This document shows positions 21,599-25,918 of a stretch of 34,305 nt of DNA, piece by piece. Position numbers and translations under genes: made by a program. The stretch covers positions 1 through 34,305 of the forward strand of contig NZ_JACCWG010000045.1 in assembly GCF_013697775.1 (NCBI RefSeq). The letters run 5' to 3'. Below the pieces are notes generated by a model. That model searched no databases. It saw only the letters and a list, made by a program, of their open reading frames with translations, and was not told where the DNA came from. The stretch comes from Ramlibacter sp. Lineage in GTDB: Bacteria > Pseudomonadota > Gammaproteobacteria > Burkholderiales > Burkholderiaceae_C. Each line of letters begins with the position of its first letter. Within the stretch, counting starts at the first letter, position 1.

Positions 21599-22138
21599 TC
21601 ACATCGCCTTGTAGAAGATGTAGTCGGCCTGGTACTTCACCACCTGCTTGCCGCCGGCGTTCGCCGCGCCGCAGGCCGCTGCCGGGGCCACGCCGCCGAC
21701 GGTGGACACACGCTGGATGTGGCTCACGCCGCTCATCGCACCGCTGCCCATGGCGGGATTGGCCTTGACCAGCTGCATCGGGATGTTGCCGGCTGCGGCC
21801 GGCGCGACGGCCAGTTGCGTGCCCGTCAGCTTGGAGCCGTCCATGGATTCCCAGGTGGCGGGCGGGCCGTAATACTTGCCGAGCATCTTGCCGCCGCGGT
21901 CCATCAGCTTCGCGTCGGGGCCGACGAACACCCACTCGAATTCACCGGCCGCGGCCGCCTTGGCGCGGCATTCGTAGGTGATGTCGCCGGCGCCGACGGT
22001 TTCCATCGCCACCCTGTGGCCGGCAGGCACTTGCACGGCGGCGGGCAAGGCCGACTGGTCGTAGGGCTTCATCATCGGTTGGGAGGCGCAGGCGGCAAGG
22101 GCGGCAACGGCCGCGGCGGCGAGGGAAATGCGAAGCAT
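21599..22138 (-). CDS. DUF3455 domain lipoprotein
   Basis: The 179-residue protein starts with a lipoprotein signal: LAAAAVAALAAC, with the lipobox cysteine at residue 17. It is therefore probably anchored in the outer membrane. The body matches DUF3455 as I know it: VQVPAGHRVAMETVGAGDIT, then YECRAKAAAAGEFEWVFVGP, KYYGPPATWESMDGSK and a C-terminal KYQADYIFYKA. The function of this family is not known. The gene converges with aceA and diverges from the thrS leader. A GGGGGACTCC stretch with GGAG-like complement precedes the ATG. Confidence 0.82.
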   Translation of the reverse strand: MLRISLAAAAVAALAACASQPMMKPYDQSALPAAVQVPAGHRVAMETVGAGDITYECRAKAAAAGEFEWVFVGPDAKLMDRGGKMLGKYYGPPATWESMDGSKLTGTQLAVAPAAAGNIPMQLVKANPAMGSGAMSGVSHIQRVSTVGGVAPAAACGAANAGGKQVVKYQADYIFYKAM

Positions 22139-22257
22139 CGGGGGACTCCTTCTTGGATAGGTTGTCGAGGCGCCTTCGGAAACCGCGGCGGCCGCGCTGT
22201 GTACGCGGCTGAGGACGAGGTGGATTCAAGCGCCGGGCAATCGCGGTCGCGCCGGGT

Positions 22258-22263
22258 TAAAAT
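22258..22263 (+). promoter_or_regulatory. Likely -10 box of the thrS leader transcript
   Basis: TAAAAT (22258-22263, five of six consensus bases) is followed by a GC-rich discriminator, typical of growth-rate-controlled promoters of translation genes. No good -35 box is seen 16-18 bases upstream. A start near 22270 would give a leader of about 200 bases that includes the leader peptide and the attenuator. Confidence 0.4.
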
Positions 22264-22326
22264 CCGCGCTTCCCCGCGAAACGACGTCCATCCGCGGGAC
22301 ACAAGAGCGAGAAAGGCATGCTGGTT

Positions 22327-22368
22327 ATGACACCGCGAACTACTTCCGAAGGGTTCACGACTCCTTGA
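22327..22368 (+). CDS. Threonine-rich leader peptide of thrS
   Basis: ATG at 22327 opens a 13-codon frame, [13 protein letters not shown], ending at TGA 22366-22368. Five codons are threonine, including a tandem ACT ACT (22339-22344) and a tandem ACG ACT (22357-22362). AAGG lies about ten bases before the ATG; an in-frame ATG at 22318 would add MLV. It precedes a terminator hairpin and thrS, so ribosome stalling when charged tRNA-Thr is scarce would sense the substrate of the encoded enzyme. The Thr density and position are seen directly; the function is inferred from other attenuation leaders such as pheM. Confidence 0.72.
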
Positions 22369-22375
22369 GGGTCGG

Positions 22376-22442
22376 CGGTCGCGCGTGCACTGAATCGTTT
22401 CGGGTTCGTCCAACAAAAGCGCGGCTGCAGACCGCGCTTTTT
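22376..22442 (+). promoter_or_regulatory. Putative thrS transcription attenuator (antiterminator and terminator)
   Basis: AAAAGCGCGG (22415-22424) and CCGCGCTTTT (22432-22441) form a 10-bp terminator stem ending in a T-run. Upstream CGGTCGCGC (22376-22384) can instead pair with GCGCGGCTG (22419-22427): nine pairs, two of them G-U, consuming the left terminator arm. GCGGT (22375-22379) can also pair with ACCGC (22332-22336) inside the leader peptide gene. A ribosome stalled at the Thr codons 22339-22344 would cover ACCGC and free the antiterminator. A ribosome at the stop codon would cover 22376-22384 and favour termination. The pairing was worked out by hand. Confidence 0.62.
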
Positions 22443-22466
22443 GCTTTCGACGAAATGCTTTTCACC

Positions 22467-24374
22467 ATGATCAAAGTCACGCTTCCCGACGGTTCCCAGC
22501 GCGAATATCCCGGCCCTGTCACGGTGGGCGAGGTTGCCGCCTCCATCGGCCCCGGCCTGGCCAAGGCAGCCCTTGCCGGCAAGGTCGACGGCAAGGTAGT
22601 CGATACCAGCTTCACCATCGCCCACGACGCCCAGGTTGCCATCATCACTCTCAAGGACCCCGAGGGCCTGGACGTGATCCGCCACTCCGCGGCCCACCTG
22701 CTGGCCTATGCCGTCAAGGAGCTGTACCCCGAGGCGCAGGTGACCATCGGTCCCGTCATCGAGCACGGCTTCTTCTACGACTTCGCCTACAAGCGGCCTT
22801 TCACGCCCGAGGACTTGGTGGCCATCGAAAAGCGCATGGCTGAACTCGCCGCCAAGGACGAACCCGTGACCCGCCGCGTGCTGCCGCGCGACGAGGCGGT
22901 GGCGCACTTCAAGAGCATCGGCGAGAACTACAAGGCCGAGATCATCGCCAGCATCCCGCAGGGCGAGGACGTGTCGCTCTACCGCGAAGGCGGCTTCGAG
23001 GACCTGTGCCGCGGCCCGCACGTGCCCAGCACCGGCAAGCTGAAGTTCTTCAAGCTCATGAAGGTGGCCGGCGCCTACTGGCGCGGCGACCACCGCAACG
23101 AGATGCTGCAGCGCGTCTACGGCACGGCGTGGGCCACCAAGGAGGAACTGCAGCAGTACCTGACGATGCTCGAGGAGGCCGAGAAGCGCGACCACCGCAA
23201 GCTCGGCCGCGAGCTGGACCTGTTCCACATCGACGACGTGGCGCCCGGCGTGGTGTTCTGGCATCCCAAGGGCTGGGCCATCTGGCAGGCGGTGGAGCAG
23301 TACATGCGCGGCGTCTACCGCGCCACCGGCTACCACGAGGTCAAGGGTCCGCAGATCCTGGACCGCAGCCTGTGGGAGAAGACGGGCCACTGGCAGAACT
23401 ACCGCGAGAATATGTTCACCACGGAGAGCGAGAAGCGCGACTACGCACTCAAGCCGATGAACTGCCCGGGCCACGTGCTGATCTTCAAGCAGGGCATCAA
23501 GAGCTACCGCGACCTGCCGCTGCGCTATGGCGAGTTCGGGCAGTGCCACCGCAACGAGCCCTCCGGCGCGCTGCACGGCATCATGCGGGTGCGCGGCTTC
23601 ACCCAGGACGACGGCCACGTGTTCTGCACGGAAGACCAGATCCTGGAAGAGTGCGTTGCCTACACGGCCCAGTTGCAGAAGGTCTACAAGGACTTCGGCT
23701 TCACCGATATCCTCTACAAGGTGGCCACGCGGCCGGACAACCGCGTCGGTGCGGACGAGCTGTGGGACAAGGCCGAGCATGCCGTCATGGAAGCGCTGCG
23801 CCGCTCCGGCGTGGACTTCGTCATTTCCCCGGGCGACGGCGCCTTCTACGGCCCGAAGATCGAATACACGCTGAAGGACGCGCTGGGCCGCCAGTGGCAG
23901 TGCGGCACCATGCAGGTGGACTTCAACACGGCCGAGCGCCTGGGGGCGGAGTACGTCACCGAAACCAGCGAGCGCGCCCACCCGGTGATGCTGCACCGCG
24001 CTGTGGTGGGCAGCCTGGAACGTTTCATCGGCATGCTGCTCGAACACCACGCCGGCGCTTTGCCCGCATGGCTGGCGCCGGTGCACGCGGTTGTGCTCAA
24101 TATCACGGACCAGCAGGCCGATTACGCCCGGGAAGTCGCCAAAACTCTGCTGGATCAAGGGCTTAGAGTGGAGCTCGACCTTCGCAACGAGAAAATCACG
24201 TATAAAATACGAGAGCATTCGCTGCAAAAGCCGCCTTACCTCCTGGTCGTTGGTGACAAGGAGCGGGCGGCTGGTGCCGTCGCAGTGCGCGCCAGGGGCA
24301 ACCAGGACCTGGGTGTCATGTCCGTGGAAGACTTCTCGAAGAGGCTTCTGGCGGACATCGCAAGCAAGAGCTGA
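22467..24374 (+). CDS. thrS: Threonyl-tRNA synthetase
   Basis: The 635-residue protein charges tRNA-Thr. Its domains in order are: TGS (about 1-62), the editing domain with the HxxxH pair in [10 protein letters not shown] (His73, His77), and the class II catalytic core. The core holds MNCPGH with zinc-ligand Cys333, [19 protein letters not shown] and [17 protein letters not shown]-terminal anticodon-binding domain ends with LLVVGDKE. Length is normal. ATG 22467 ([10 protein letters not shown]) matches the family start; ATG 22455 is possible and neither has a strong ribosome binding site. It is the first structural gene of the thrS-infC-rpmI-rplT-pheST cluster and is probably controlled by the leader described upstream. 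Confidence 0.98.
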
Positions 24375-24461: not shown

Positions 24462-25067
24462 ATCGCTACTGAATTTCGCGACCGCCGCCAGCGCGAGGAA
24501 CGCAAGCACCGACTGAACCGGGAAATCATGGCCCCGGAAGTCCGCTTGTCCGGGCCCAACAACGAGCCCCTGGGCATCGTGAGCCTGCAGGAAGCCCTGC
24601 GCCTGGCTGGCGAAGCCGACGTCGACCTGGTTGAAATTGCCGCGACTGCCGTTCCGCCGGTATGCCGGCTGATGGACTACGGCAAGTTCAAATACCAGGA
24701 ACAGAAGAAGGCCGCCGAAGCGAAGTCGAAGCAGACGGTCATCGAAATCAAGGAAATCAAGTTCCGCCCGGGCACGGACGATGGCGACTACAACATCAAG
24801 TTGCGCAACATCCGACGTTTCCTGGCCGAAGGCGATAAATGCAAGATCACGCTGCGCTTTCGCGGCCGCGAGATCACGCACCAGGAAATCGGCATGGCGC
24901 TGCTGCAGCGCCTGCGCGACGACCTGGCGGACACGATCATCGTGGAGCAGTTCCCGAAGCTGGAAGGCCGGCAGATGATCATGATGATCGCCCCGGGCAA
25001 GCGCAAGCTGCCCCCAGCCAAGCCGGCCGAAGCGGCGGCCAGCCCGTCGCCCGCGACGACGGCCTGA
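24462..25067 (+). CDS. infC: Translation initiation factor IF-3 with AUC start codon
   Basis: The protein is 201 residues when started at ATC 24462, reading (M)[20 protein letters not shown], then [20 protein letters not shown]. The frame has a stop at 24435-24437 and no ATG, GTG or TTG before ATG 24528, which would remove 22 family-conserved residues. AGGA lies about nine bases before the ATC. IF-3 proofreads start codons on the 30S subunit. infC genes of proteobacteria use rare AUU/AUC starts so that excess IF-3 represses its own synthesis. The N domain (about 20-90), lysine-rich linker ([15 protein letters not shown]) and C domain are complete. A Pro/Ala-rich tail of about 15 residues ends the protein. 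Confidence 0.95.
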
Positions 25068-25884: not shown

Positions 25885-25918
25885 AGGGGCTAGGGCTTGC
25901 CAGCGCTAGCCCCTTTTT
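25885..25918 (+). terminator. Terminator-like hairpin between rplT and pheS
   Basis: AGGGGCTAG (25885-25893) pairs with CTAGCCCCT (25906-25914) and runs into a T-tract to 25918. The loop is 12 bases. It lies 48 bases after rplT and 18 bases before pheS, so it may end the ribosomal-protein transcript partly or act as an attenuator for pheST. No Phe-rich leader frame is seen before it. Confidence 0.72.

Follow-up and report, generated by a model that had tools for sequence, protein, structure and literature searches.

The window, which denotes the whole stretch of 34,305 nucleotides analysed here, derives from a contig of Ramlibacter sp. and contains the thrS gene for threonine–tRNA ligase. The assignment rests on a match to TIGR00418 of 711.4 bits against a cut-off of 383.65, and the gene is the single full-length match within its own genome. 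It is followed downstream by infC, rplT, pheS, pheT and ihfA, each matching its own family, and the gene order from infC to ihfA is that of E. coli. The start codon of infC is probably an ATC at positions 24462–24464, which lies in frame 22 codons upstream of the ATG at 24528 and recalls the non-AUG start used by E. coli infC. The gap between rplT and pheS contains a strong terminator-like hairpin at positions 25886–25918 (GGGGCTAG...CTAGCCCC) followed by TTTTT, and inspection of this gap by eye revealed no Phe-rich leader frame in the window.

Upstream of thrS, a reading of the DNA from the sequence alone (the sequence-only reading) had placed a frame of 13 codons, five of them for Thr, between a −10 box and a canonical terminator just before the synthetase gene, and all of these parts were confirmed (Table 1). 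An additional in-frame ATG at 22318 would lengthen the leader peptide by MLV. The stem of the terminator ends 25 nt before thrS.

Table 1. Coordinates of thrS and of the elements preceding it in the window
Feature	Position	Strand	Remarks
−10 box TAAAAT	22258..22263	+	−10-like hexamer in 69 of 117 loci
AAAGG, probable leader Shine-Dalgarno sequence	22312..22316	+	10 nt 5' of ATG; role inferred
18-nt core GGTTATGACACCGCGAAC	22323..22340	+	leader codons 1–4 and first two bases of codon 5
leader peptide frame with stop, begins MTPRTT	22327..22369	+	13 codons
segment 1, CGCGAACU	22334..22341	+	A22339 bulged; pairs with segment 2
segment 2	22376..22384	+	common to hairpin 1:2 and antiterminator 2:3
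segment 3	22419..22427	+	forms the antiterminator with segment 2, the terminator with segment 4
intrinsic terminator, T-rich tail	22415..22446	+	stem 22415–22424/22432–22441, loop 22425–22431
thrS, threonine–tRNA ligase, presumed regulated gene	22467..24374	+	TIGR00418

Promoter-like box, core and leader peptide among relatives

The comparison was based on a first set of 110 thrS upstream regions, consisting of the window, 80 regions of named-species genomes, which are the best 80 of 584 stretches, and 29 regions of near genomes, of which 61 were searched and the loci taken from the best 30. In addition, the 18-mer core was searched for in 399 genomes of the order. In total, 121 leaders with a terminator were assembled, 70 from the first set (with its best 80 of 584) and 51 from the order-wide search, which represent 120 distinct DNAs and 108 distinct peptides; these leaders were selected by the 18-mer, so the conservation of the core among them is partly by construction. 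The loci L006 (Rhodoferax antarcticus), which has no perfect terminator, and L008 (Polaromonas sp.), whose start codon is replaced by ATA, were left out and look decayed; also left out were L096, for which another hairpin was picked, and L045 and L049, whose peptides start with MIQAPRTTT. The upstream sequence of L035 comprises just 2 nt. An alignment (A1) was made of 37 leaders of the first set, picked because they could be aligned. Leaders of the Oxalobacteraceae, Burkholderia and Cupriavidus types, which have other spacers, stand outside A1 and its covariation tests and enter only the duplex analysis, the folding with ribosome positions and the codon counts. The rows are kin, so their independence is overstated by the shuffle counts given below.

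A −10-like hexamer located 18–120 nt upstream of the leader ATG was detected in 69 of 117 loci, compared to 5.2 (s.d. 2.2) in shuffled sequences, and in each of the 29 loci tested from the own genus; its presence there argues against a transcription start inside the leader, and transcription in the window would be expected to start near 22271. The pattern used found no such box in 48 of the 117 loci, and there is no match to a −35 element at the predicted promoter of the window, where this region is poor. A simple scan of positions 21800–22800 returned neither a sigma-70 promoter nor a terminator; it probably missed the latter by counting the A-T extension as part of the stem. The AAAGG motif in front of the leader does not vary across the 37 rows of A1, and among the 121 leaders (drawn in part from the best 80 of 584 stretches) position −12 is a G in 99 and position −14 an A in 108 cases.

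The core is present in the 110 upstream regions, which include the best 80 of 584, as an exact copy in 65, with up to three mismatches in 73 and with up to five in 75 cases. Among the 399 genomes of the order, it was found exactly in 31, with at most one mismatch in 46 and with at most two in 87 genomes. All 46 matches with at most one mismatch stand upstream of thrS, as established from 44 fetched loci, from the window and in one case by coordinates, and the leader ATG precedes thrS by 113–280 nt in the 44 fetched loci. Of 16 fetched matches with two mismatches, seven are located upstream of thrS, and the nine located elsewhere have the appearance of chance hits. In its own genome the core occupies one place at up to three mismatches. 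Because a trans-acting RNA might need such sites, the core and its complement were searched for throughout this genome, and no further site turned up at up to three mismatches, a limit that short seeds could escape. No match was obtained in viral contigs.

The encoded peptides are biased towards threonine. Codon 5 specifies Thr in all 121 leaders, codon 2 in 117 and codon 6 in 78 (drawn in part from the best 80 of 584), so that the conservation of Thr codons proposed as a check of the sequence-only reading is complete at codon 5 and not universal after it. From codon 6 onward, Thr is the commonest of the 20 residues in the 108 distinct peptides (185 of 902), followed by Arg (109). Only two Thr codons are present in 24 of the 121 leaders, at codons 2 and 5 in 22 of these 24, which counts against a simple Thr-sensor picture. 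A motif-free test of short ATG frames yielded Thr doublets in 66 of 109 regions (best 80 of 584 included) compared to 3.4 in shuffles, and the corresponding values were 22 vs. 8.1 for Ser, 20 vs. 12.5 for Arg and 12 vs. 2.5 for Phe. A short frame rich in cognate codons, a feature of ribosome-mediated attenuation, is present at these loci. Divergent leaders without the 18-mer are represented by MIQAPRTTTASERQ (L045 and L049), MARRTLTETTSERR (L062), MSPNYARTTTSSPR (L046), MFFPPARTTTRNFRPMSR (L073), MLDRTTSGNIAG (L041) and MFKRTTTTRISR (L080), and all seven retain the Arg-Thr codon pair CGA-ACN. By eye, the leader frame is absent from L015, L016, L017 (Limnohabitans), L019 and L033; leaderless loci such as L017 carry a promoter-like AAAAT a few dozen bases upstream of a terminator abutting thrS. 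The leader is also absent from L078 and L079, where a long hairpin (GGGCGCAC...GTGCGCCC) was seen by eye ahead of thrS.

Searching 56 genomes of other orders of the class provided 29 loci besides the window, in which Thr doublets were hardly enriched (4 vs. 1.4, one of the four being L188) and CGA-ACN leaders did not occur (0 of 29, control codon pairs 0–5). A strict filter for a Thr doublet and at least three Thr codons retained three candidates from these 29 loci, and L188 led to a second order (centre G446; L188 and L202–L255). Loci of this order were obtained for 28 (28 of 30 genomes positive) and 30 listed genomes (41 of 41 positive); one locus had no thrS start, and 54 regions were kept. 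Thr doublets are found in 37 of these 54 loci compared to 0.35 in shuffles, doublets of any other residue in at most four, and a terminator was called in 44. The Thr leaders of the second order are very short, with about 6–10 codons, and have forms such as MSTTTAHR or, with CGA-ACN, MTRTGTPD, MSTRTFFRY, MARNTRTTTA and MNVSFRTTT. The pair CGA-ACN occurs in 11 of the 54 loci, one of them with a frame apparently derived from a tRNA; the control pairs of codons occur in 0–6 loci except for ACN-CGA with 11, which probably reflects the same Thr-Arg-Thr leaders. The Thr leaders of the two orders may go back to either shared ancestry or convergence.

Terminator, alternative pairings and RNA folding

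An intrinsic terminator between the leader frame and the gene, as found in attenuators, was recognised in 72 of 73 leaders with at most three core mismatches, which come from the set with the best 80 of 584 (the exception being L096 with its other hairpin), and in all 51 thrS-linked loci of the order-wide search. Its cells in A1 are paired to 98.2% and hardly vary.

The antiterminator of nine base pairs between segments 2 and 3, which the sequence-only reading had found by hand, is indeed complementary, with two G-U pairs, and the comparison supports it as an antiterminator shared by the relatives. In the 37 leaders of A1, 91.6% of its cells are paired, and 20 cells are changed on both sides compared to 8.4 (s.d. 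2.4) in shuffles, a value reached in none of 500 shuffles; slid registers reach up to 13. Likewise, the covariation score of 0.247 was not reached in 500 shuffles (0.166, s.d. 0.016), and slid registers scored at most 0.099. Two stricter count measures showed no excess over shuffles in A1, namely the number of pairs with changes on both sides (4 vs. 3.2, reached in 184 of 500 shuffles) and the number of further pair types (13 vs. 12.2, 208 of 500). Over the 121 loci, the duplex has a mean z of −1.51, with z below 0 in 112 and p ≤ 0.05 in 49 loci. The letters of segments 2 and 3 differ among families, e.g., GGUCGCG/CGCGGCU, CUAGUCG/CGGCUAG or UCGAGG/CCUCGA, and often include the terminator loop.

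For the protecting hairpin in front of it, a pairing of 22332–22336 with 22375–22379 had been proposed. These five base pairs are complementary, but the register common to the relatives is shifted to 22334–22338 and 22340–22341 with 22377–22383, leaving A22339 bulged. This helix 1:2 (A1 columns 42–51/101–111) is paired in 89.8% of its cells, and its duplex is weakly better than shuffles (mean z −0.94, p ≤ 0.05 in 14 of 72 loci); with so little variation in its 5' strand, the sequence evidence for it is weak. Around the leader stop codon, an inner hairpin is paired to 82.6% in A1, and two of its pairs show changes on both sides. Taken jointly, terminator, inner hairpin and helix 1:2 contain nine cells changed on both sides compared to 2.6 in shuffles (none of 500), and slid registers reach 12. 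Another candidate, a GGU-ACC hairpin at the leader ATG, was dropped, as position −4 is a C in 15 of 121 leaders.

Folding, another check proposed by the sequence-only reading, returned the antiterminator as the best structure for 22271–22432 and as the lowest-energy one for 22345–22432, and the terminator forms once segment 4 is included. The folding energy of the whole leader is no better than that of shuffles (z −0.75) and was discarded as uninformative. With a ribosome placed at codon 5 and the RNA cut before segment 4, segment 3 pairs upstream with an average value of 0.815, compared to 0.679 with the ribosome at the stop codon, 0.536 without a ribosome and 0.702 with shuffled spacers. Applying a margin of 0.1, pairing is higher for the stalled than for the finished ribosome in 49 of the 121 loci and lower in six; in the own genus, it is higher in only 3 of 29 loci, and folding does not separate the two states. 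In the window, the value is 0.86 for both ribosome positions; without a ribosome it falls to 0.02 for 22295–22427, yet the best fold of the longer piece is the antiterminator, and this value varies with the cut chosen. As far as equilibrium models go, folding supports the alternatives 2:3 and 3:4 and not the protector step.

Proposed attenuation of thrS and alternative explanations

By sequence comparison, the locus combines a small frame with a Thr bias, a terminator, an alternative pairing with changes on both sides, linkage to thrS and a −10 box, and we infer that these parts work together as follows. Transcription would start near 22271, and the leader MTPRTT... would be translated. With Thr-tRNA in short supply, the ribosome would stall at Thr codons 2, 5 or 6 and cover segment 1, leaving segment 2 free to pair with segment 3, and RNA polymerase would read into thrS. 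With ample Thr-tRNA, the ribosome would reach the stop codon, segment 2 would be covered or back in its pairing with segment 1, and segments 3 and 4 would form the terminator that ends transcription before thrS. Leader translation, ribosome stalling, the 1:2 step and the response to threonine are the predicted components of this scheme. We assign a probability of about 85% to a ribosome-mediated transcription attenuator that ties thrS expression to charged tRNA-Thr, in which case the enzyme would probably be produced chiefly under a shortage of charged threonine. Ribosome-mediated attenuation had already been suggested by the sequence-only reading, and the conservation of Thr codons, terminator and antiterminator in the relatives supports it; the loss of Thr codons and stem in relatives, which would have spoken against it, was not seen.

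The start of the leader is more constant than the encoded peptide would require. In the thrS genes of 70 loci, 101 invariant columns with four- or six-fold degenerate codons served as control, and the share of the majority codon there is 0.70 on average and 0.96 at most. In the leaders of the same 70 loci, taken from the set with the best 80 of 584, codon 2 is ACA in 67, codon 3 is CCG in 69 and codon 4 is CGA in 68 cases; these loci were chosen by the 18-mer, which makes the constancy partly one of construction, and the exact core is present in 65 of the 110 regions, which were not selected by it. Two of the codons are rare: across five genes of the operon, ACA makes up 1 of the 94 Thr codons and CGA 4 of the 168 Arg codons. 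Fixation of the leader start thus extends to its synonymous positions, for which the identity of the peptide does not account, and the 1:2 pairing could explain CGCGAAC at most. No anticodon mimicry was found in the core by eye. A tentative and rather unlikely reading is that the core GGUUAUGACACCGCGAAC does more than encode MTPRT and is itself read as RNA, which would make the element a double sensor, for charged tRNA and for a second signal, maintained throughout the order. The reader would be ThrRS, the ribosome (through its encounter with ACA and CGA, both rare) or a target of the short RNA that termination releases. The occurrence of CGA-ACN in the short leaders of the second order (10 of 54 loci) hints that such an element may be older still.

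That the core is constant at synonymous sites to a degree not needed for the peptide would also suit a mechanism in which termination is set by ThrRS, some other protein or uncharged tRNA bound to the invariant core of the leader RNA, with the small frame being secondary, and E. coli ThrRS does bind its own mRNA leader. We consider this improbable, since Thr is enriched outside the core too, L041, L046, L062, L073 and L080 keep their Thr codons with most of the core gone, and Rfam matches to a T-box or Thr_leader are absent. It is even harder to credit that the terminator is a constitutive partial stop, which sets the thrS level or makes a short RNA while the frame does not sense Thr: neither the Thr bias nor the conserved alternative pairing is expected of a fixed terminator, although a promoter-like box and a terminator without a frame are seen by eye in L015, L016, L017, L019 and L033. 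Least probable of all is control of thrS translation or mRNA decay rather than termination by the leader frame; its stop codon is only 97 nt away from thrS, but the conserved alternative pairing acts on an arm of the terminator, whose stem ends before the gene.

Relation to known systems and significance

Attenuation governed by tRNA-Thr charging would differ from the known modes of thrS control. The textbook case is E. coli thrS, which is subject to translational self-repression by ThrRS; feedback on thrS via the 5' leader is common to both, but in E. coli ThrRS blocks ribosome binding to the operator, whereas an upstream leader frame and a terminator are found here. In Firmicutes, thrS is under T-box control, which likewise responds to the charging of tRNA-Thr and works through a terminator, while the sensing proposed here would go through translation. 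Neither the T-box (RF00230) nor Thr_leader (RF00506) has a match in the window at the gathering score or in 22150–22500 at E ≤ 5, and Rfam gave nothing above chance on the leader region, with one match of E 1.1 on the opposite strand. E. coli pheST is attenuated through pheM and resembles the system described here as a synthetase operon controlled via codons of its own amino acid, with another gene and another amino acid. Control by leader peptides is also known from the enteric attenuators thrL, hisL, trpL and ilvL, for which Rfam holds Thr_leader and others. These share with our locus a short frame rich in one amino acid and mutually exclusive antiterminator and terminator structures (partly described in PMC3766115, in which the attenuators then in Rfam are limited to His, Leu, Thr and Trp); the differences are that a tRNA synthetase gene is concerned here instead of biosynthesis, that Thr codons alone stand out, and that an 18-nt start without an Rfam match is conserved across an order.

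A thrS leader peptide as such is already known from Streptomyces lividans TK24, where transcriptome data revealed thrL with the peptide MKRVRPFLETTPGFVPAR before thrS, as reported in PMC8079986. This leader also contains Thr (two residues), but it belongs to an actinobacterium, has a leaderless start, and no uridine-rich terminator was found for it in that study, whereas the locus here has a Shine-Dalgarno-like sequence, a peptide unrelated to that of thrL and a terminator of canonical form. PMC1262725 reports attenuators for trpS and leuS in Actinobacteria and none for threonine operons, and self-regulation is all that PMC2965389 mentions for E. coli ThrRS. Our literature search, whose coverage mostly leaves out subscription papers, retrieved no report of a thrS leader peptide in proteobacteria.

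The leader element has no counterpart among the Rfam families and lends itself to simple tests, and the synonymous-site conservation of its start presents a testable puzzle. In many betaproteobacteria and in the second order, expression of thrS appears to be set by tRNA-Thr charging via transcription attenuation, and the rule established for E. coli would therefore not be general.
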